Shown piece after piece: positions 31,705 through 44,388 of a DNA stretch of 50,271 nt (position 1 is the stretch's first letter; the number at the start of each line of letters is the position of its first letter). Made by a program: the position numbers and the translations under genes. The notes under the pieces are model-generated. The model had not been told where the DNA came from. It saw only the letters and a program-made list of their open reading frames with translations, and did not search any database. Source of the stretch: Nitrospira sp. (GTDB lineage: Bacteria; Nitrospirota; Nitrospiria; Nitrospirales; Nitrospiraceae); NCBI GenBank assembly GCA_020853775.1, contig JADYYH010000077.1, positions 1-50,271 of the forward strand, in the 5' to 3' direction.

Positions 31705-31930
31705 GCGGCCCTCCTGTGTGGACCAGAGACTACCCTGGCCTGGCGGAGGCGAATAGACCACCAGAGGTGGGGGGAGGCCTCCTGGCCTTGCTGCATGTCG
31801 AATCATGCGACGGGATGGAAACCGAAGCCCATGAGATTTCGGTGGAACGATCCGGGAGACGGGGCGGCTCTTGCTGGAAGGGCTGGTGAAGACCGGCGCC
31901 ACCAAAGCAGGCCGTCCGGGCGACTCTGCA

Positions 31931-32038
31931 TGGCGGAGAGGGTGGGCATTCGAAGTCGCGCATACGCGCTCCCACTGAGGGGGCCTGCCCCCTCGTGTCT
32001 CCCCACGCAGGGGAGTACCTCCCCCGCGATCCCTCTCG
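31931..32038 (-). ncRNA. tRNA-Ser-like relic or unusual tRNA-like RNA
   Basis: The minus strand reads an acceptor-like arm CGAGAGG (5', 32038-32032) that pairs 6 of 7 with CCTCTCC, followed by GCCA at 31931-31934. Between lie CTCCC-CTGCGTG-GGGAG (a 7-base loop with T at the position of U33; the next three bases are GCG), a long variable-arm-like hairpin GAGGGGG-CAGG-CCCCCTC, and a T-arm GTGGG ... TTCGAAT G CCCAC with 16 extra bases that contain GCGCGTATGCGC. The D-arm is not recognisable. The 3' 16 bases are identical to the 3' end of the tRNA-Ser gene at 32114. Probably a decayed copy; a functional role is open. Confidence 0.5.
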
Positions 32039-32054
32039 TTCGAATCCCACCGCC
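32039..32054 (+). repeat. tRNA T-loop-like fragment in inverted orientation
   Basis: TTCGAATCCCACCGCC is the T-loop and following 3' strand of a tRNA read on the plus strand. It touches the 5' end of the tRNA-like relic. With the relic's own T-loop it makes an inverted pair around 31932-32054. Confidence 0.5.
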
Positions 32055-32113
32055 TTAGCTAGCAATGGCAATTCGACTCGTACGCCTTCTCAAATCTTAC
32101 AGGGCACTTTCGG

Positions 32114-32201
<88 letters not shown>

Positions 32202-32349
32202 GCGCAAGGTCAGGCAAAGACGTGTAGCTTACCGTGGAGCGTTACGAGATTCAAATGAAATCATGAGGTTGAGTGGAATTTCTTTCACCACTACGGGAAA
32301 CCGTGGAGTCGGGGGGAAAGGTGATTCCATTTGGTGATGTCCCCATAAG

Positions 32350-32437
32350 GCCGTAGACTCACCTCGTACAGGACAGCCGGACGGAAACCGTCGTCAGACT
32401 TTGGATTTTCGAGAGGAAATCCGAATAAGTCTACGGC
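32350..32437 (+). ncRNA. Predicted structured leader RNA upstream of the NRPS
   Basis: GCCGTAGACT (32350-32359) and AGTCTACGGC (32428-32437) form a perfect 10-bp closing stem. Inside are two hairpins: GACGG-AAA-CCGTC (32380-32392) and GGATTT-TCGAGAGG-AAATCC (32403-32422), giving a three-way junction. The AGTCT strand could also pair with AGACT at 32396-32400, an alternative fold. It ends 45 bases before the NRPS start codon. It matches no riboswitch class that I can recall. It may be a cis-regulatory element of the cluster. Confidence 0.55.
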
Positions 32438-32482
32438 AGGGTCCCGGGTACGCCTCCTGAGCCTACTGGGGTTGAGCATTCT

Positions 32483-35400
32483 GTGGTCAGACATCCACCG
32501 GTCACTATTCCAGCCGGCGACACCATCCTTGATGTGCTGCGTTGGCGGGCTGAGCAGCAACCTGACCAGACAGCCTACACCTTTCTTCGGGAAGGGCTGA
32601 ACGCCGATGCCGTCCTGACGTATGGAGAGTTGGCGGCCCGCGCTCGTTCGATCGCCGTCTATTTGCACACCCGGTTTGCGCCGGGAGCGCGCCTCCTGCT
32701 GGTGTATCCGCCGGGGCTTGAGTTCGTGCAAGCCTTTTGGGGAACGCTCTACGCCGGCCTCATCGCCGTGCCGGCTCCGCATCCGGACGCATTCCGCATG
32801 AAAGCCGGCGTCATGCGTGTCCAACGCCTCGCCGAAGATTCGGGTGCCGCCGGCGCCTTGACCACATCCCAGTTGCTGGAAACGCTCCGGTCGCAGGAAA
32901 TCTCTCCCCCGTTAGGCCAGTGGGTCTCGACCGACCAGGCGCTTGCAGCCGATCCTTCGTGTTGGACCGACCGGCATCCGCAGTCTTTACACCTCGCGTA
33001 TCTGCAATATACCTCCGGCTCAACATCGGCCCCGAAAGGGGTGATGGTCAATCATGGGAACATGACTGCTCAGAGCCGGTGTATTACCGAGGCGGGTGGG
33101 TACGACGCCGGGTCGGTCACCCTGTCGTGGATGCCGCATTTTCATGACTATGGACTCGTGAAGGGCATCATTCAGCCTGCGTGGATCGGCCGTCCCTCCT
33201 ATCTCATGTCGCCGCTCACGTTCCTCAAACGTCCCTTACGCTGGCTCGAAGCCATTCAACGCTACGCGGTCACGCATAGCGGCGCGCCAAACTTTGCCTA
33301 TCGTCGATGTGTGGACGCGACGACGGCTGAGGAACGGGCAGGATTGGATCTTTCCGGTTGGCAGGTGGCGAGCTGTGGAGCAGAGCCTATCGCGCCGGAC
33401 ACCATCGAACGGTTTGCCGACGCGTTCGCGCCATCCGGTTTTCGGCGCGACGCCTTCTTTCCCGCCTATGGAATGGCGGAATACACGCTCCTGATTTCGT
33501 TAAAACGAGTCGGGGTGGCGCCGACCGTGACCACGCTGGATGCTGCAGCATTGGAGCAGGGCGCGGTGATCGACGCGCGCGCCGACGGAGGGCCGGTTCG
33601 GCGGGTGGTCGGATGCGGCATGCCCGTCGGCGATACGCGTGTGGTCATTGCGCATCCTGAGACGCGTTGCCGTTGCGCGCCGCAACAGGTCGGTGAAATC
33701 TGGTTGTCCGGCGCCAGCACGACGCAAGGCTATTGGAACAATCCCGACGAAACCGCGCGAACATTCGGCGCCAGACTCGCGGATACCGGAGACGGGCCGT
33801 TCTTACGAACCGGCGACCTCGGGTTTGTGAAGGACGGCGAAATCTTCGTGACGGGTCGGTTCAAAGATCTGCTGATCGTTCGAGGTCGAAACCATTATCC
33901 CCAGGATCTCGAGCGAACGGTCGAATCCTGTCATAGCCTGCTCAGATCAGGAGGCGCGGCCGCGTTCACGGTTGAGGAGGGCGGCGAAGAAGCCGTGGTG
34001 CTGGTCCAGGAACTGGAGCGTCAGGCAACGCCGTTCCCCACTGAGGACGTCGCCGCGGTCATACGTGCGGCCTTGTCGGAACAGCATGACCTCCATGTGT
34101 CGACCATCGTCTTCATTAAGGCCGGGAGCCTTCCCAAGACGTCGAGTGGGAAGGTGCAGCGGCGCGCCTGTCGAGAGCAGTATCTGGCAGACCGGTTATC
34201 GATCATCGGAACAAGCGTGGCGCCGCTTCCCGTTGGGCTGCCCTCTTCCACGGTCATTCAGGCGGACGCGTTGCAGGGACTTTCGGGGGAGGCACGCAGA
34301 CGGGCCATTCAGGAGACCGTGCAGAAGCTGTTGGCTGATCGTCTCGGTCGCATGCCCGACACCATCGCCGGTGATCAGCCGATCCATCTTCTGGGACTCG
34401 ACTCCTTGATGGCGGCAGACGTGCTGCATCGCCTGGAAGAATCGTTTCACCTGCCGCTGTCGCTCTCTTCGCTTCTGGGCGGCGCGACACCGGCTGATCT
34501 GACGACGACGATTGAATGCGGGCTGGCCGGCGACCCGCTCTGCGAGCCCGAGGCTAATTTTTCGGATGCCGCTGCGAGGACGGTATTCCCGTTGTCCGAA
34601 AACCAGGCAGCCCTATGGTTTTTAAGTCAGTTGGATCCCGCCAGCGCCGCGGCCAATGTGTCCCTGTTGTTGCCTCTGCCGTCCGACGTGACAGCGGACC
34701 GGTTGCGAGCCGCGCTGGAAGAAATCGGCGAACAGCAGGCCATGCTGCGCACCACCTTCGAGACGCAGCAGGATGTACCGGTTCAACGAATCCATCAGCG
34801 GATGCCAATGAGTTGGAGCGAGATCGACAGCTCCGCGTGGGACTGGCGCCGGTTACGGCAGGAGACCGTGAAGGCTGCGGCGGTCCCGTTCACCCTGACG
34901 CAGGGCCCTTTATGGCGAGCGGTTCTGTTTCATGGCGGACCGAAGAACTGGTTGCTGTTGATCGCCCACCATATCGTCGTGGACGGCTGGTCGATGATGC
35001 AGGTGGTCGATGATCTGAAGCGGCGCTGTGGATCTGCTGGCGCGAGTCGTTCAGAGCCTTCCTCTCGGCCTCAGGACCTTTCCGCAACCTACAGTGAATT
35101 CGTCGAGTGGCATCGGGCCATCCTGGATGGGGAGGAGGGCCGTCGACAGGCGCAGTACTGGAAGGCGAAGCTGGCCGGTGAGTTGCCGAATTACGACATG
35201 CTGTACGACCGGCCTGAGACCACGGTTGAGCCAGGGCACTATGCCTGGCATACATTCCAGATTGAGGGCGACCTGACTCGCCGCCTGCAAGCATTTGCCC
35301 AGACCGAGGGCGCGACGTTGTATGCCGTCTGCCTGACCGCCCTCCAAGTCTTGCTCACTCGCTACACGGCTCAAGAGGATACGGCAGTCGTCACGCCGGT

Positions 35401-38400
35401 CTTCGGCCGTAGCCGGGCTCGATTCGCCCACACGGTTGGTGACTTTGTAAACATGCTCGTCCTGCGGGAGAGCCTGCAGCCGGAGTCCACCGTTCATGAG
35501 CTGTTGGCACAGACGAAGCAGACGCTATTAGACGCGCTGGCCCATCAAGAGTATCCCTATGCGCGGTTGGTGGCAGACAGACGATCGGCTCGTCAAGGCC
35601 CGCGAGCGCCCTTGGCGCAAGTGCTGTTCGTGTTGCAGCCGTTCAAGCTGTTGGCGGAACTCGACTTGCGGATGAATGCATCCCCGGCTGCTGCGCCAGA
35701 CGGTCGATTGCCCGCGTGGGACGCCTATGTCATTCCACAACAGAGCGGCCAATTCGATCTCTGTATCGAGCTCGCTGAATCGGACCAGGGGTTGAGCGGG
35801 TATGTCGAATATAAGGATGCCCTCTTTGACGCGGAGCGGATCGAGCGCATGCAGGAGCATTACGTGCGTCTGCTGGAGGAGCTGGTCAGCCATCCATCCG
35901 CCGGCATCGGCAGCCTGCCGCTCATGTCCGAAGCGGAAATGCAGCAGACCGTGCTGGCATGGGGACAATCCTCCGCCACGGCGGAGCCTGAGCTGTGCCT
36001 CCATCGCATGATCGAAGCGCAGGCCCGACTGACTCCCGAGGCCATTGCGGTCGAACAGGAGGGGCAGTCGCTGACCTATCGGGAATTGGATGCGCGTTCA
36101 AATCAAGTCGCCCATTACCTCCGCCGTCGTGGCGTCGAACCGGGTGTCGTCGTCGGGCTCTGTCTTGAGCGTTCGCTCAATTTGATCGTGGGCATGCTCG
36201 GCATTCTGAAGTCGGGCGGGGCCTATCTGCCGTTGGATGCCGATTATCCGACCGAACGGTTGGAGTACATGCTGCGGGACAGCCAGGTGCGCGTGCTGGT
36301 CACTCAGCAGGATCAGCTCGTGCGGCTGCCCGCCACGAATGCCCATACGATCTGCCTCGATTCGGAATGGGCACAGATTGCGAAGTGTCCCGAGAGCGCC
36401 ATCGCGGGCACTGATGCCTTGGACAATCTGGCCTATGTCATCTACACGTCAGGGTCCACAGGGCATCCGAAGGGGGTGATGATCGAGCATCGATCGATCG
36501 TCAACTATGTGCGAGCCTTCACAGAAATCGTCGACCTGACGGGGCGAGATCGGGTCCTGCAATTTGCCTCGTTGAGTTTTGACACGGCTGCTGAAGAAAT
36601 CTTTCCCTGTCTATCTGCCGGGGCGACATTGGTGCTGCGCACGGCGACGATGGTGGATTCGGTTTCCGGTTTTCTGGATCGCTGCCGTGATGTGACCGTG
36701 ACGGTCCTGGATCTCCCCACGGCCTACTGGCATGAGCTGGTGACCCGGATGGCATTGGAGCAGATCCCGTTTCCTTCGTCCGTCAGAATCGTAATCATCG
36801 GTGGCGAGCGAGTGCTTCCGCAGATCGTGCAGTGCTGGACCAACCTGATCGGGACGGCCGTTCGATTGACTAATACCTATGGGCCGACAGAAACGACCGT
36901 CGCAGCGACCTGGTCGGAGTTGACCGGTCTGGGGGCGGACAATGACATCGTCGGCGACTTACCGATCGGGCGCCCCATTGCTCATGCCTCCGCTTATGTG
37001 TTGGATCGGAATCAACGGCCGGTTCCCGTGGGCGTGGCGGGAGAGCTCTATATCGGTGGCCTTGGAGTCGCGCGCGGCTATCGGGGGAGGCCGGAGCTTA
37101 CCGCGGCCAAATTCATCCCCGATTCTTTTTCCACTCTCCCGGGAGCGCGGCTGTATCGCACCGGTGACCTCGTGCGATGGCGACCGGACGGGCAATTGGA
37201 TTATCGAGGCCGTGCCGATCGCCAGGTCAAGATTCGCGGGTATCGGATCGAGTTGGAAGAAATCGAGGCCGTCCTGAACCGGCATCCGGATCTGGAACGG
37301 GCCGTGGTCGAAGTACGGGAAGATCAGCCGGGGGATAAGCGGATTGTGGCGTTCATGGTGCCACGTCCGAATAACCGTCTCGGATTGGGGCAATTGCGCG
37401 AGCAGCTTCGCAGCCAGTTGCCGGCGCATATGATTCCGTCGACCTTCATCGAGTTGGAAACGCTGCCGCTGACCGTCAACGGCAAAGTGGATCGAAAAGC
37501 GCTGCACGTCGCGGCGGACAGTCGCGCCAGCAAGGTCGAATTGACCTCCGAGTTCCTTGCTCCCCGGACGCCCACGGAACAGGTGCTCGCCGATATCTGG
37601 GGAGAAATCCTCCAGATCAAGGATGTCGGCGTGCATGATCACTTCTTTGAACTGGGGGGACATAGTCTGCTCGCCACACAACTCGTGTCGAGGGTCCAAT
37701 CCTTGTTCCGGATCACACTGCCGCTGCGGCAGATCTTCGAGCGTCCGACCATTGCCACCTTGGCCGAAGTGATCACCCAGGCCCAGGCCGGCGAAAAGCC
37801 GCTTCAAGAGCAGTGCGGCTATGTAATCATACGCGCCAACAGGGGAACGCCGCTGCCACTGTCATTTGCGCAGGAGCGGATGTGGTTCCTCTATCAACTT
37901 TCACCCGAAGCCGCCGCCTACAATATTCCGGCCAGCGTCCGTTTGCATGGCCCGCTCAACAAACCAGCGCTGCGATGGGCAGTCGGCGAACTGGTTCGGC
38001 GCCATGACGCGCTCCGGACGACCTTTGCTCACGTGGATGGTCAGCCGCGTCAGATCATTCACGATGTCTTGGACCCGATCTGGACGGACGAAGACTTGCG
38101 TGGAGTGCCGGCCGAACTCCGTGAGGCGCGAGCGCTGGAGCTCGCGACGGCGGAGGCGCGCCGACCGTTCAACTTGGAGCAGGGGCCGCTCCTGCGCGTC
38201 TTCTTGATTCAGCTGGGGGATGAAGATCACGTCGTGATCTTGAACACGCATCACATCATTTCCGATCAATGGTCCTATGGGATCGTCGCGCGCGAACTCG
38301 TCACGTCCTACAATGCGTTTTGTGCAGGGAGGCCGTTTGCCGTTCAACCCGATCTCGCCATTCAGTATGCGGACTTCGCGCAGTGGCAGCGGGGATGGCT

Positions 38401-41400
38401 CACCGGTCCTATGCTGGACGCACAACTCGCGCATTGGACGTCGAAACTCACCGACTTACCCGTCGTGACCTTGCCGACCGACCGCCCGCGTCTGCCGGTC
38501 CATTCCTTCAAGGGCGATCATGTCTCGGTGGACCTGTCCTGGTCGCTGGTCAATCGTCTCAAGCAACTGAGCGTGCGCGAAGGGGTCACGCTCTACATGG
38601 TGTTCCTGGCTGGATTCTTCGGGCTGCTCCATCGTCTTACGCAACAGAAAGACCTGGTCATCGGCACACCGATCGCCAACCGTAACCGGCTCGAGATCGA
38701 GGAACTGATCGGGACCTTCGTCAATACGCTGGTGTTGCGAACGGACGTTACGAGCGAGCTGACGTTCCGGGACTTGTTGCGCAAGGTGCGGGATCTGTCG
38801 CTCGACGCCTATGCGCACCAGGACATCCCATTTGAGAAGCTCGTGGAAGAATTGCGGCCGGATCGCAGTCAGGGTGGCTTGCCGCTGGTGCAGGTGCTGT
38901 TCAACTTCGCCAATACGCCCTTTGCCCGCACCGAGTTTCACCAGCTCTCCTGGACTCCCTATGAAGTGAGCCGCGGCGCAGCCCAACTCGATCTGGGTCT
39001 CTCCATCGATCCGTACGCGTCGCGAAAAGCCTACTTGGAATTTAATACGGACCTGTTCGATCGTGTCTCCGCCGAGCGTTGGATTGCTCAGTATCGGCAG
39101 CTGATGGAAGCGGTGGCCGAACATCCCGAAGGAGCACTCGGGCGCGTGTCGATTCTCAGCGGGCAAGAACAACATCGTATGTTGCTCGAATGGAATGCGA
39201 CCGACCGACTGGTCGATGACGGGATGTGCTTTTACCAATTGTTCGAGGCGCAGGTCAGTCGGACGCCGGATGCTGTCGCCGTGCTGTTTGAAGGGCGCGA
39301 ATGGTCGTATGCGGAGTTGAATCGTCGCGCCAACCGGTTAGCGCATCGCCTGCGTGAGTGCGGTGTCGGGCCGGATGCCGTGGTGCCGGTCTTTTTGGAG
39401 CGCTCGCCGGATCTGCTGATCAGCCTCCTGGCAGTCATGAAAGCAGGTGGTGCCTATTTGCCGCTGGTGCCGGGATTGCCGATACGAAGGCTGGCAGCGA
39501 TGATCGAGGCGAGTCATGCCGCGGTGGTGATCACCGATTCCGCCCTGCTGGGCGGCCTGCCTCAGCATCAGCTCCCTGTTCTGTGCGTGGATCAGGAGGC
39601 GGCGGCTTTGGCGCGTCAGCCGGAGGAGAATCCCGCACCGCTGTCCGGGCCGGAGCATCTGGTGTACGTACTGTTCACCTCCGGGTCGACCGGCCATCCC
39701 AAGGGGGTCGAGATCGAGCATCGTGCGCTGCTGAACTTTCTCCGCTCCATGCAGCAAGAGCCGGGCATCACGGCTCGCGATGTCCTCGTGGCCATCACCC
39801 CGCTCTCCTTCGATATCGCAGGGCTGGAACTCTATCTTCCCCTTCTGGCTGGCGCCACCATCGTCCTGGCGAACCGGCAGCAGGCGATGGACGGAGCCTG
39901 GCTGCAACGTGAACTCGATCACGGTGCCGTGACGATGCTGCAAGCGACTCCCGCTACCTGGCGCATGATTCTACAGTTTGGCTGGAACGGTGGACGCGGG
40001 GTCAAAGTCTTGTGTGGAGGGGAATCCCTGCCGCGCGAATTGGCGCAGGAGCTGCTGACACGAGCCGGATCCGTTTGGAACGTCTATGGGCCGACCGAAA
40101 CCACGATATGGTCGACCCTGGAACGGGTACGGAGCGCTGAACGGACCATTTCTCTGGGGCGTCCGATCGCCAACACACAGGTCTACGTCCTGGATGCCAA
40201 CCTCGAGCCGGTCCCGGTCGGGATACCGGGCGAATTGTATATCGGTGGGATGGGGTTGGCCAGGGGCTACAGGGGGCAGCCTCAGTTGACGGCGGAGCGC
40301 TTCATCTCCAATCCATTCCGGACTGGTGAACGACTCTATCGCACTGGCGACCAGGTGAAATGGTTGCCTGACGGGCGGCTGGACTACGTCGGCCGAATCG
40401 ACCACCAGGTCAAATTGCGCGGGTTCCGGATCGAGCTGGGCGAAATTGAATCGGTGTTGGGCAATGAGCCGACTGTGAAACAGGCCGTCGTGATTGTGCG
40501 GGAAGATGCGCCGGGCGACAAACGTCTGGTGGCCTATGTGGCGGCGCGGGAGGGGAGTGCTTGTGATCCATCCAGCCTTCGCCGGATGCTGCGAGAGGTG
40601 CTTCCGGATTACATGGTGCCGGCTGCCATCGTTCCGCTCACGGAGTTTCCGCTTACGCCCAACGGGAAAGTGGATCGCGCGTCCCTGCCGGCACCGAACG
40701 CCGAGCCGGTGCACGACGGGGCTCAGGCCATCGAACCTCGAAATCGGGTGGAGCTGCAGCTGGTAGCGATTTGGGAACAGGTGTTAGGCATGACGCCGAT
40801 TGGTGTGCGCGATAACTTCTTTGCGCTCGGCGGGTATTCACTACTGGCGCTGCGCATGTTCAGCGCGATCGAACAGACCTTCGGCACACGACTGCCCATG
40901 GCAGTGTTGTTCCAGGCGCCGACCATCGAGCAATTGGCGGATGTCCTGACCGATGAAGGATGTACGGTACGATGGCGTTCCCTGGTGGCGATTCAGCCTG
41001 AGGGGAAACGACCGCCGTTGTTTGCCGTGCCCGGGGTCGGGGGCAATGTGCTCGTGTTTGCACGTCTCGCCAAATTGCTGGGCGACAACCAACCCTTCTA
41101 TGGATTGCAGGCCCGCGGGCTCGATGGCAAGGAAAAGCCGTTCATGCGGGTGGAAGAGATGGCGGCGCATTACATCGAAGAGATTCGGTCGGTGCAGCCG
41201 CATGGTCCCTATTTCATCGGAGGCACCTGCACGGGCGGGCTGGCCGCCTATGAGATCGCGCAGCAACTCACGGCGCAAGGGGAAGACGTTATTCTAGCCG
41301 TCATGGAATCCTGGCATCCACGATCCTACCTGAATCACTGGAGCCGCCCGCCCTATTTGTTGTGGCCGTTGCTCTTTGTGTGGATGAAAGTGACGACCTA

Positions 41401-41842
41401 CCTTCGGCTCATGCGCCGGTTGCCCGCGCGTGACTGGGCGGCGTTCTGGAAGGGAAAGTTGAAACGCATGTGGAATCTCATGCACCATACCGAAGCCGCC
41501 GAACATCAGGACGAATTCTTGTATAAAGACCAGGTCACCTATGCGACCTTCCATGCCGTGGCACGGTACGATCTGAAACCCTTCCGTGGACAGGTGTTGA
41601 ACGTGATTGCATCCAAACATCCGCTCACGAATTCCAGCGATGACACGCGGCTGGTCTTCGGTGAGTGGGCGATGGGCATGAGCCGGACGATCTATCTTCC
41701 GGCGGAGGATTCGGGACGCTTGTTCGTGGCGCCACATGTCCAAGAATTGGCTCGTCACCTCAAGGCGTTTTGGCATGAGGCGGAAACCATGCGCAAACGG
41801 CCTGATGGCCAGGGTGACGGATCCAGCACGAAGGCTGCGTAG
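32483..41842 (+). CDS. Hybrid FAAL-NRPS: FAAL-ACP-C-A-T-C-A-T-TE
   Basis: 3119 residues. Domains: fatty acyl-AMP ligase 10-575 (YTSGSTSAPKG; GRFKDLLIVRGRNHYPQDLE); ACP 605-680 (LGLDSL, Ser641); C1 700-1150 (HHIVVDG, His830, Asp834); A1 1170-1670; T1 1690-1765 (LGGHSL, Ser1728); C2 1790-2240 (HHIISDQ); A2 2250-2745; T2 2750-2830 (LGGYSL, Ser2786); thioesterase 2840-3100 (GGTCTGG, Cys2916). A1 reads DTEDIGTVAK at the ten specificity positions, A2 DILQLGVIWK, close to the classic glycine code. It should activate a fatty acid without CoA, add two residues and release an acyl-X-Gly product. No epimerase. The GTG start has only a weak ribosome site. Confidence 0.95.
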   Translation: MVRHPPVTIPAGDTILDVLRWRAEQQPDQTAYTFLREGLNADAVLTYGELAARARSIAVYLHTRFAPGARLLLVYPPGLEFVQAFWGTLYAGLIAVPAPHPDAFRMKAGVMRVQRLAEDSGAAGALTTSQLLETLRSQEISPPLGQWVSTDQALAADPSCWTDRHPQSLHLAYLQYTSGSTSAPKGVMVNHGNMTAQSRCITEAGGYDAGSVTLSWMPHFHDYGLVKGIIQPAWIGRPSYLMSPLTFLKRPLRWLEAIQRYAVTHSGAPNFAYRRCVDATTAEERAGLDLSGWQVASCGAEPIAPDTIERFADAFAPSGFRRDAFFPAYGMAEYTLLISLKRVGVAPTVTTLDAAALEQGAVIDARADGGPVRRVVGCGMPVGDTRVVIAHPETRCRCAPQQVGEIWLSGASTTQGYWNNPDETARTFGARLADTGDGPFLRTGDLGFVKDGEIFVTGRFKDLLIVRGRNHYPQDLERTVESCHSLLRSGGAAAFTVEEGGEEAVVLVQELERQATPFPTEDVAAVIRAALSEQHDLHVSTIVFIKAGSLPKTSSGKVQRRACREQYLADRLSIIGTSVAPLPVGLPSSTVIQADALQGLSGEARRRAIQETVQKLLADRLGRMPDTIAGDQPIHLLGLDSLMAADVLHRLEESFHLPLSLSSLLGGATPADLTTTIECGLAGDPLCEPEANFSDAAARTVFPLSENQAALWFLSQLDPASAAANVSLLLPLPSDVTADRLRAALEEIGEQQAMLRTTFETQQDVPVQRIHQRMPMSWSEIDSSAWDWRRLRQETVKAAAVPFTLTQGPLWRAVLFHGGPKNWLLLIAHHIVVDGWSMMQVVDDLKRRCGSAGASRSEPSSRPQDLSATYSEFVEWHRAILDGEEGRRQAQYWKAKLAGELPNYDMLYDRPETTVEPGHYAWHTFQIEGDLTRRLQAFAQTEGATLYAVCLTALQVLLTRYTAQEDTAVVTPVFGRSRARFAHTVGDFVNMLVLRESLQPESTVHELLAQTKQTLLDALAHQEYPYARLVADRRSARQGPRAPLAQVLFVLQPFKLLAELDLRMNASPAAAPDGRLPAWDAYVIPQQSGQFDLCIELAESDQGLSGYVEYKDALFDAERIERMQEHYVRLLEELVSHPSAGIGSLPLMSEAEMQQTVLAWGQSSATAEPELCLHRMIEAQARLTPEAIAVEQEGQSLTYRELDARSNQVAHYLRRRGVEPGVVVGLCLERSLNLIVGMLGILKSGGAYLPLDADYPTERLEYMLRDSQVRVLVTQQDQLVRLPATNAHTICLDSEWAQIAKCPESAIAGTDALDNLAYVIYTSGSTGHPKGVMIEHRSIVNYVRAFTEIVDLTGRDRVLQFASLSFDTAAEEIFPCLSAGATLVLRTATMVDSVSGFLDRCRDVTVTVLDLPTAYWHELVTRMALEQIPFPSSVRIVIIGGERVLPQIVQCWTNLIGTAVRLTNTYGPTETTVAATWSELTGLGADNDIVGDLPIGRPIAHASAYVLDRNQRPVPVGVAGELYIGGLGVARGYRGRPELTAAKFIPDSFSTLPGARLYRTGDLVRWRPDGQLDYRGRADRQVKIRGYRIELEEIEAVLNRHPDLERAVVEVREDQPGDKRIVAFMVPRPNNRLGLGQLREQLRSQLPAHMIPSTFIELETLPLTVNGKVDRKALHVAADSRASKVELTSEFLAPRTPTEQVLADIWGEILQIKDVGVHDHFFELGGHSLLATQLVSRVQSLFRITLPLRQIFERPTIATLAEVITQAQAGEKPLQEQCGYVIIRANRGTPLPLSFAQERMWFLYQLSPEAAAYNIPASVRLHGPLNKPALRWAVGELVRRHDALRTTFAHVDGQPRQIIHDVLDPIWTDEDLRGVPAELREARALELATAEARRPFNLEQGPLLRVFLIQLGDEDHVVILNTHHIISDQWSYGIVARELVTSYNAFCAGRPFAVQPDLAIQYADFAQWQRGWLTGPMLDAQLAHWTSKLTDLPVVTLPTDRPRLPVHSFKGDHVSVDLSWSLVNRLKQLSVREGVTLYMVFLAGFFGLLHRLTQQKDLVIGTPIANRNRLEIEELIGTFVNTLVLRTDVTSELTFRDLLRKVRDLSLDAYAHQDIPFEKLVEELRPDRSQGGLPLVQVLFNFANTPFARTEFHQLSWTPYEVSRGAAQLDLGLSIDPYASRKAYLEFNTDLFDRVSAERWIAQYRQLMEAVAEHPEGALGRVSILSGQEQHRMLLEWNATDRLVDDGMCFYQLFEAQVSRTPDAVAVLFEGREWSYAELNRRANRLAHRLRECGVGPDAVVPVFLERSPDLLISLLAVMKAGGAYLPLVPGLPIRRLAAMIEASHAAVVITDSALLGGLPQHQLPVLCVDQEAAALARQPEENPAPLSGPEHLVYVLFTSGSTGHPKGVEIEHRALLNFLRSMQQEPGITARDVLVAITPLSFDIAGLELYLPLLAGATIVLANRQQAMDGAWLQRELDHGAVTMLQATPATWRMILQFGWNGGRGVKVLCGGESLPRELAQELLTRAGSVWNVYGPTETTIWSTLERVRSAERTISLGRPIANTQVYVLDANLEPVPVGIPGELYIGGMGLARGYRGQPQLTAERFISNPFRTGERLYRTGDQVKWLPDGRLDYVGRIDHQVKLRGFRIELGEIESVLGNEPTVKQAVVIVREDAPGDKRLVAYVAAREGSACDPSSLRRMLREVLPDYMVPAAIVPLTEFPLTPNGKVDRASLPAPNAEPVHDGAQAIEPRNRVELQLVAIWEQVLGMTPIGVRDNFFALGGYSLLALRMFSAIEQTFGTRLPMAVLFQAPTIEQLADVLTDEGCTVRWRSLVAIQPEGKRPPLFAVPGVGGNVLVFARLAKLLGDNQPFYGLQARGLDGKEKPFMRVEEMAAHYIEEIRSVQPHGPYFIGGTCTGGLAAYEIAQQLTAQGEDVILAVMESWHPRSYLNHWSRPPYLLWPLLFVWMKVTTYLRLMRRLPARDWAAFWKGKLKRMWNLMHHTEAAEHQDEFLYKDQVTYATFHAVARYDLKPFRGQVLNVIASKHPLTNSSDDTRLVFGEWAMGMSRTIYLPAEDSGRLFVAPHVQELARHLKAFWHEAETMRKRPDGQGDGSSTKAA

Positions 41843-41894: not shown

Positions 41895-43592
41895 ATGATA
41901 AAAATGTACCGGTTCCTCCTCTTCCTGCTGCGCGACGCCAGAACCATGATGGTCCTCATGGTCCTGACCGGGCTGTTGGCCGGCCTCTCCAGTGTGGGCT
42001 TGCTGGCGGTGATCAACAAGCTTATCAACGGAGCCGGAACCACCTCGGAATTGTTTGCAGCGGCATTTATCGGGTTGGCCGTACTCAAAGTCGGATCAAA
42101 TTATCTCTCCCAGCTCTTGCTGGTCACCTTCGCGCAAAAGACCATCCTCAAATTGGGCATGGATCTGTGCTGGAAAGTCGTGCGGGCGCCCTATCGCACC
42201 CTGGAGCGCCGCGGGCCGCATGAAATTCTTGCGACGCTGACGGACGACACGAACGCCCTGGCCTGGGCGGTGAACGGCTTGCCCGGCTTGGCCATCAATG
42301 TCGCGATCCTGACGGGCTGCTCCCTCTACCTCGCCTGGTTGTCCTGGCAAGCGTTTCTGGGAGTCGTCGTGCTCGCCGTGTTGGGGCTGCTGGGTTATCG
42401 TCAGCTCTACAACCGGGTGCTGCAGTCGTCATTGGCCGTACGCGATTCAAAGGGCATCCTCTTCGAACATTTCCGGAGTCTGACGGAAGGCATGAAGGAA
42501 CTCATGCTGCATCGAGGACGCCGGGAGACGTTCGTCGAAGAGGATATCCGGCAGGCGGCCGACGCATTGCGACGTCATAACCTGACCACGACCAAACAAT
42601 ACCTCGTGACGGATTCCTGGACGCAGGTGCTGTTCTATGGCCTGATCGGCGTCATCCTGCTGCTCTTTCCACGATTTCTTGCGTTGTCAGGTGAATCGCT
42701 GACCGGGTATGCGTTTGCCATGCTCTATATGATCGGTCCGATGTGGGGCTTGCTGGGCATGGTGCCGACGCTGAGCCGTGGGCAGGTGGCGTTGGAAAAG
42801 ATTGAATCGCTGGGGCTCGCACTGGATGAGGGTGGTCGGGAAGACGGTGCGGAGCGACCCGTGGCGCAGGGGAGCCACTGCGTGGAATTTTCCCGGGCGT
42901 TGTTTGCCTATGAGTCAAAAGGCGAGGACGAACGCTCGTTCAGCTTAGGGCCGTTGGATCTGTCGATTCGCCCGGGTGAACTCGTCTTCATTATCGGAGG
43001 GAACGGCAGCGGCAAGTCGACGTTTGTGAAAGTGCTCACGGGCCTCTATCTGCCGCAACAGGGACAGGTGGCATTGAACGGTGAGGTGATCACGCCGGCG
43101 ACTCAGGATTGGTACCGGCAGCATTTTGCCGCGGTCTTCTCGGATTTTTATCTGTTCAAAAAACTGCTGGGTCTCGACCCTTCGCTCGTCGCCAGTCAGG
43201 CAGAGGGCTGGTTGAAGACGCTCCGGATTGATCACAAAGTCAGCATTGAACAGGGTGAATATTCCACGGTCAATCTGTCGCAAGGGCAACGAAAGCGCCT
43301 GGCCCTCGTGACCGCGATGCTGGAAGACCGGCCGTTTTATGTCTTCGATGAATGGGCTGCCGATCAGGACCCTCAATATAAGGACGTGTTTTACGGCGAG
43401 TTGTTGCCGAATCTCAGGGCCCGCGGGAAAGGGGTCATTGTGGTGACGCACGATGACCGGTATTTTCATGTGGGTGACCGCGTGTTAAAACTGGATGACG
43501 GACGAATCGTCGAGGCCTCAACCGGCGCCGCCTTCAGCGCCACGCACCGTCCTGCGCCCCTCTTGAAACCGGTGGCCCGGTCATCGGCGTAA
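41895..43592 (+). CDS. SyrD/PvdE-type peptide-export ABC transporter
   Basis: 565 residues: a six-helix permease half fused to an ATPase. The N-terminal membrane domain (from MYRFLLFLLRDARTMMVLMVLTG) contains FEHFRSLTEGMKELMLHRGRR, typical of the cyclic-peptide export group (SyrD, PvdE). The ATPase has Walker A GGNGSGKST, signature LSQGQRKRLAL, Walker B FYVFDEWAADQDP and the switch His in VVTHDDRYFHVGD. It is likely to move the NRPS product across the inner membrane as a homodimer. It starts 52 bases after the NRPS stop and reads in the same operon. Confidence 0.92.
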   Translation: MIKMYRFLLFLLRDARTMMVLMVLTGLLAGLSSVGLLAVINKLINGAGTTSELFAAAFIGLAVLKVGSNYLSQLLLVTFAQKTILKLGMDLCWKVVRAPYRTLERRGPHEILATLTDDTNALAWAVNGLPGLAINVAILTGCSLYLAWLSWQAFLGVVVLAVLGLLGYRQLYNRVLQSSLAVRDSKGILFEHFRSLTEGMKELMLHRGRRETFVEEDIRQAADALRRHNLTTTKQYLVTDSWTQVLFYGLIGVILLLFPRFLALSGESLTGYAFAMLYMIGPMWGLLGMVPTLSRGQVALEKIESLGLALDEGGREDGAERPVAQGSHCVEFSRALFAYESKGEDERSFSLGPLDLSIRPGELVFIIGGNGSGKSTFVKVLTGLYLPQQGQVALNGEVITPATQDWYRQHFAAVFSDFYLFKKLLGLDPSLVASQAEGWLKTLRIDHKVSIEQGEYSTVNLSQGQRKRLALVTAMLEDRPFYVFDEWAADQDPQYKDVFYGELLPNLRARGKGVIVVTHDDRYFHVGDRVLKLDDGRIVEASTGAAFSATHRPAPLLKPVARSSA

Positions 43593-43620: not shown

Positions 43621-44388
43621 ATGATGTCGCGTGTGCCCGATCCCATGGTCCCATCCCCCTCGTTTCCCGTTCTTGATCCACAAGCAGTCCATGTCTGGTT
43701 CTGCGAACTGTCGCGCCATGTCGAGTGCCAGACTGCCTTTGTCGCAGAGCTTTCTGACGAGGAGCGGGCCCGCGCGGCCCGATTTGCGTTTGAGCGCGAT
43801 CGTCAACGCTTCATCCTCTCGCATGGATTGCTGCGACGGGTGCTGTCCCGGTACATGCCCATCACAGCGCAAGCCATTCAATTTGGCACAGGGGAGCATG
43901 GAAAACCGACCCTCAGTGGTCCGGCAGGCCCTTCTGACGACCTCCGGTTCAGCCTCTCCCATTCTGCAGAATATGCGCTGATAGCCGTGGCGCGTGGACG
44001 GGAGGTCGGAGTCGATGTCGAAGTGCGCAAGGCGAACCTGGACTGTCTCAAACTGGCCGAACGATTCTTTGCGCCGGCGGAAGCGCAGGCGATGGCCACG
44101 CTTCACGGGGACGCGCAGCAGCGCCTGTTTTACCGCTTGTGGACGGCGAAAGAGGCCTACCTCAAAGGGCGCGGTGTGGGGCTGTCATTCGGCTTGGAGC
44201 GATTCGAAATCATGTTCGAGGGGGAATCATCTGCTGCGCGCGTGCGGCTGAGAGGCTCGGGAACCGTCGATCAGACGTGGAAGATCCGGTCGTTGCCGCT
44301 GCCGGATCACCTGGCGGGTGCGGTGGCCGTGGCAGGTGGTGACGGGGATGTACATCGCTACGACGCGGCGGCCTTCTTTCTCGCTTAA
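43621..44388 (+). CDS. Sfp-type 4'-phosphopantetheinyl transferase
   Basis: 255 residues with GKPTLSGPAGPSDDLRFSLSH, GVDVEVRKANLD (Mg-binding Asp/Glu) and RLWTAKEAYLKGRGVGLSF (W-x-x-KEA-x-x-K signature). It transfers phosphopantetheine from CoA to the Ser of the ACP and T domains, so it would prime Ser641, Ser1728 and Ser2786 of the NRPS. Third gene of the cluster, 28 bases after the exporter. Its stop overlaps that of tadA on the opposite strand. Confidence 0.94.
   Translation: MMSRVPDPMVPSPSFPVLDPQAVHVWFCELSRHVECQTAFVAELSDEERARAARFAFERDRQRFILSHGLLRRVLSRYMPITAQAIQFGTGEHGKPTLSGPAGPSDDLRFSLSHSAEYALIAVARGREVGVDVEVRKANLDCLKLAERFFAPAEAQAMATLHGDAQQRLFYRLWTAKEAYLKGRGVGLSFGLERFEIMFEGESSAARVRLRGSGTVDQTWKIRSLPLPDHLAGAVAVAGGDGDVHRYDAAAFFLA

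Follow-up and report, generated by a model that had tools for sequence, protein, structure and literature searches.

The core lipopeptide NRPS operon of Nitrospira is preceded by a real, conserved and uncatalogued leader. Here, this leader is described from a 50,271-nt stretch of Nitrospira DNA (the window) and from related genomes, and the best single reading, held tentatively at a probability of about 0.38, is that it is a genus-restricted cis-regulatory leader in which translation initiation would be controlled by strand exchange. The preliminary description of this DNA had proposed a leader RNA folded as a three-way junction just upstream of the NRPS gene. That a conserved leader fills the stretch from a promoter-like block to the NRPS start was borne out by its occurrence in 28 of 29 genomes and by the identity of its blocks; the three-way junction was not.

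The NRPS gene is present in 29/29 Nitrospira genomes searched, and its ORF comprises an N-terminal fatty-acyl-AMP ligase-like domain, two condensation-adenylation-carrier modules and a thioesterase. Its named relatives (71-95% identity over the first 574 residues) are from Nitrospira, including N. defluvii. The GTG at 32483 is supported as the likely start by an ATG at the same position in two relatives (L070 and L074/L199). Upstream alternative start codons were considered and rejected, as 20 of the 28 leaders contain no in-frame start upstream of the GTG. Another FAAL-NRPS gene, whose frame spans ~1920 aa, lies at G007:C1:888576-890255, and about ten other Nitrospira genomes likewise have such a second gene. 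Beside the tRNA-Ser gene of the window there are partial copies of the tRNA-Ser(CGA) 3' end, direct and inverted (31931-31946 and 32038-32051), which could be attachment-site remnants; these copies probably explain the tmRNA that ARAGORN called at 31712-32206.

Table 1. Positions of the leader elements and surrounding genes in the window
Feature	Coordinates	Strand	Basis or remark
tRNA-Ser(CGA)	32114..32201	-	Upstream of and divergent from NRPS
Putative promoter block GGTGATTCCATTTGGTGAT (AAAAGGTGATTCYGTTTTGTAAT in relatives)	32320..32338	+	28-congener alignment
Putative transcription start	32345..32346	+	Alignment only; about 7 nt after -10
Conserved 5' block GCCGTAGACTCACCTCG, shared candidate switching strand	32350..32366	+	Identity 0.89; kept in L049/L051, L129, L180
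P1 5' arm (closing stem of the preliminary description)	32350..32359	+	Perfect repeat, fold
Inner hairpin 2 (GACGG-AAA-CCGTC)	32380..32392	+	Predicted fold; poorly conserved
Competing strand B CCGTCGTCAGACTT	32388..32401	+	Predicted full-leader fold; partner of P1 3' arm if 5' block engaged elsewhere
Inner hairpin 3	32400..32425	+	Predicted fold; poorly conserved
P1 3' arm AGTCTACGGC	32428..32437	+	Perfect repeat, fold; conserved complementarity
Putative Shine-Dalgarno GGGGTTGAG	32468..32476	+	Position and similarity to AGGAGGTGA
TCTGTGGTC around GTG start, 3' arm of PL helix 1	32480..32488	+	
NRPS, FAAL-ACP-(C-A-T)2-TE	32483..41842	+	3119 aa, GTG start
ABC exporter (TM + ATPase)	41895..43592	+	Probably same operon as NRPS
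4'-phosphopantetheinyl transferase	43621..44388	+	Probably same operon as NRPS

Alignment of the leaders of 28 congeners resolved three conserved blocks: the promoter-like block, a 5' block (CCGUAGACUCACC) and a start block that extends between about -29 and codon 4 or 5. In pairwise comparisons the 5' block (alignment columns 8-24) averages 0.89 identity; within the start block, the mean is 0.86 upstream and 0.96 from the start codon. The leader middle averages 0.57 and the stretch immediately preceding the start block 0.48, compared with 0.47 at four-fold sites. Conservation of the start block reaches codon 4 with third positions included, and its identity of 0.95 over 29 nt lies above all coding windows of equal size. 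The putative -10 aligns to 32333-32338; the window has a degenerate -35, which reads TTGAGC/TTGAAG in relatives, and no match to a consensus promoter was found in the window. The 24-nt promoter motif is exclusive to the NRPS locus and is found in 20/29 genomes at ≤3 mismatches.

A covariance model of the leader matched 28/29 congeners with one strong locus each, and a neighbouring genus contributed two further genomes with forms of the leader (E 1e-34 and 1e-18). The model found no leader at NRPS genes of other genera that are 46-50% identical, where the upstream sequences differ. Several loci of another genus (L181, L184, L187, L190, L193 and others) carry a conserved block of their own upstream of the orthologous NRPS, AGAAATTCTTTGAATTT...CACTACTCTAGTCATCGGTGAA, which suggests a different conserved leader or promoter. 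Natural variants of the Nitrospira leader also occur. L049 and L051 lack the whole leader middle and keep the 5' block; L129 (G004) conserves the promoter and 5' block next to an unrelated start block; and L180, from another genus, keeps the promoter, spacing and 5' block with a changed start block. L074/L199 (Nitrospira RSF6, G133) retains the distal arm and start block alone: in place of the leader's first half it has the 5' end of a different FAAL gene, matching the start of orthologues such as L183.

The local architecture first reported for this DNA was confirmed. The 10-nt arms GCCGTAGACT (32350-32359) and AGTCTACGGC (32428-32437) are perfect reverse complements, 45 nt separate the 3' arm from the GTG, and RNA folding of the 88-nt stretch that they bound recovered both inner hairpins (32380-32392 and 32400-32425), with a free energy of -35.3 kcal/mol (z = -4.45) that 0/200 shuffles equalled. 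By itself the 10-bp perfect repeat is only mildly unusual, as one occurs in 23/3000 dinucleotide shuffles of the 143-nt leader (about 0.8%) and ~10 occur across the 50-kb window; it stands above chance because it is conserved in relatives. Over 29 sequences, 81.6% of cells in the closing stem (P1) pair, compared with at most 40% in slid controls. Column permutation tests of P1 complementarity, chosen after the predicted folds had been viewed so that all p-values given here for P1, P0 and PL are optimistic, returned p < 0.001 for the clade of the window (A); a second clade gave 0.001, two further clades gave 0.05 and 0.11, and all non-A sequences, pooled, gave 0.002. On these comparisons P1 complementarity is genuine, and part of the genus conserves it. 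Covariation, proposed earlier as a check on orthologous leaders, did not appear in the closing stem: 1/266 cells is doubly changed, no more than in shuffles. Among the seven closest species, 91% of closing-stem pairs are kept, compared with 86% and 79% in the inner hairpins, and the inner hairpins thus decay in close relatives; together with the loss of the middle in L049/L051, this identifies the three-way junction as a local, lineage-specific form and not as a conserved unit.

The 5' block has two further potential partners. Outside the window's clade it is predicted to pair with its own 3' flank as P0 (UCCRCCG-UAGA-CUCAC-loop-GUGAG-AC-CGGY(Y)GGA). In clades B-D and L070, this helix shows compensatory changes: one pair exchanges G-C and A-U (five distinct sequences), and L070 has A-U in place of a C-G pair. 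For P0, the covariation score was matched by 1/500 shuffles and was the highest among slid controls, and the permutation p was 0.01-0.05 in clades C and D. P0 is absent from the window's own clade, and in L070 the 5' segment, folded in isolation, does not outperform its shuffles. In the second potential arrangement, PL, CCGUAGA pairs with UCUGUGG and CUCACC with GGGGUUGAG, that is, with the Shine-Dalgarno-like sequence and the GUG start; GGGGTTGAG is the 3' arm of PL helix 2, and also that of a local hairpin in relatives. Over 29 sequences, 91.6% of PL cells are paired, compared with at most 52% in slid controls. Changes in PL helix 1 are mostly G-U/A-U or G-C/G-U exchanges, the 5' strand common to P1 and PL hardly varies, and double (compensatory) changes were absent for PL and did not exceed chance for P1. 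With permutation p-values of 0.011 in the window's clade and 0.046 for all sequences, PL complementarity appears only weakly above chance, and it is weak in L033, L049, L051 and L070.

The suggestion that an alternative pairing would break the closing stem is plausible. The alternative AGACTT (32396-32401) / AAGTCT (32427-32432) is present, and folding of the complete leader predicts that it forms, but the start site emerges as the more telling competitor of the stem. When the window sequence was folded as a growing transcript, P1 scored 0.99 at 32442, 0.15 at 32454 and 0.87 at 32472; at 32490, PL reached 0.94 and strand B:C 0.85, with the Shine-Dalgarno region predicted to be 11% and the start region 2% unpaired. 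This folding covers one sequence and was run without kinetics. The P1 and PL states would be mutually exclusive in the window because strand B takes the P1 3' arm. The energy balance between them is not conserved across species, favouring P1 in L029, L030, L037 and L047 and PL in L025, L027, L031, L045 and others.

In the proposed model, the NRPS operon would be transcribed with a 5' leader of ~138 nt, and the 5' block at the very start of the mRNA would act as a switching strand. Paired with the downstream AGUCUACGGC (the P1 state), or, in other clades, with the sequence flanking it on the 3' side (the P0 state), it would leave the ribosome-binding site free. Paired with GGGGUUGAG and UCUGUGG (the PL state), it would cover the Shine-Dalgarno sequence and GUG and switch translation off. 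In the window, P1 would give way to PL once the start codon had been transcribed. The trigger of the exchange might be a protein, a metabolite, an RNA, temperature or the speed of transcription. Sequence, conservation and predicted folds are the established parts of this model; the promoter, the transcription start, folding in cells and the translational response are its putative parts, and since strand exchange was computed for one sequence and the P1/PL balance varies, it is held at the probability given above, with serious rivals. The bolder version, that these leaders form a new RNA class restricted to the genus, with a 5'-end block that chooses among three partners to gate or time lipopeptide NRPS translation, possibly through a new ligand or protein, is improbable.

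The strongest rival, doubtful but to be taken seriously, is that the 5' block works as DNA, either as an operator or as a promoter element in the initially transcribed region, read together with the -10 by a transcription factor. RNA folding would then be incidental, and the P1 3' arm would carry, as GTCTACG, a second, inverted operator copy. The block begins a fixed 12 nt after the -10-like hexamer, gap-free in the alignment and with the same spacing in L129, L070 and L180, and GGTGATTC and GACTCACC form an imperfect inverted repeat on either side of the -10. The block also persists in L129, which has lost the start block, and in the two species without the middle (L049, L051), and in L129 it must have a role that does not depend on PL. 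However, the promoter motif has no other copies in the genus and so gives no sign of a regulon, and both the compensatory changes in P0 and the separate conservation of the start block as far as codon 4, third positions included, call for some further cause, at the RNA level or elsewhere.

It is unlikely, though by no means negligibly so, that a hairpin at the mRNA 5' end, P0 or, in the clade of the window, P1, merely stabilises a long mRNA in front of a good ribosome-binding site, with no switching. The P0 stem lies a few nucleotides from the putative 5' end, the sole covariation is in P0 (clades B-D and L070, none in the window's clade), and conserved start regions are common. Nevertheless, the 5' block, including the predicted loop bases UAGA, is conserved beyond the need of a protective stem, L049/L051 keep the block without either stem, and the 29-nt start block exceeds every coding window of its size.

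A small-molecule riboswitch that senses the product or a precursor is very improbable. A biosynthetic operon and mutually exclusive folds that include a state sequestering the start site would suit one, and such helices, as in a riboswitch-type expression platform, are predicted in the window, but their balance is not conserved and PL p is 0.011-0.046. Moreover, no conserved aptamer core with covariation was found: the middle has no conserved junction or pocket-like core, it varies and can be lost entirely, and the inner hairpins decay. The leader also has no Rfam relative and serves one gene in essentially one genus. The preliminary description could match it to no known class, and Rfam searches gave the same outcome: at gathering score, 4227 Rfam 15 families gave tRNA-Ser as the sole match in the window and 11 related loci, relaxed Rfam thresholds gave no leader match in the window or relatives, and plasmid and viral collections gave no match. 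A transcription attenuator was rejected, as no intrinsic terminator or attenuator was found in the leader in the window region or L039, and middle indels that are not multiples of three argue against a leader-peptide attenuator. Least likely of all is that the repeat is a chance feature of a conserved promoter and ribosome-binding region or, like the MITE or other mobile inverted-repeat element already rejected, a mobile-element remnant: its frequency in shuffled leaders and in the window would allow for chance, but searches of its own and related genomes gave a single locus per genome, vertically conserved at the same place, P1 complementarity is conserved across clades, and indel boundaries in relatives do not track the repeat ends.

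Nitrospira are key nitrifiers of sewage plants and soil. NRPS clusters in Nitrospira have been listed (PMC9765116), and a literature search found nothing on this leader and no description of the product and role of the lipopeptide operon. If the strand-exchange reading is right, the leader would be the first testable control point for an operon carried by all Nitrospira genomes searched, and the natural variants with a lost middle, a replaced start block or a replaced 5' half could separate RNA from DNA function.

Guanidine riboswitches reported in comammox Nitrospira (PMC11410670; PMC12342949) are likewise leader RNAs of this genus, but their Rfam models do not match here and the gene type differs. 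Translational riboswitches and protein-controlled anti-Shine-Dalgarno leaders resemble the proposed model in having mutually exclusive helices, one of which would cover the Shine-Dalgarno sequence and start; unlike them, the Nitrospira leader has no Rfam match, and its conserved core, instead of occupying a junction, lies at the very 5' end. Bacterial mRNAs also carry 5'-terminal stabilising stem-loops of the ompA type, which the P0 stem resembles in beginning a few nucleotides from the putative 5' end, whereas the Nitrospira leader differs from them in its conserved loop and block sequence and in its complementarity to the start site.
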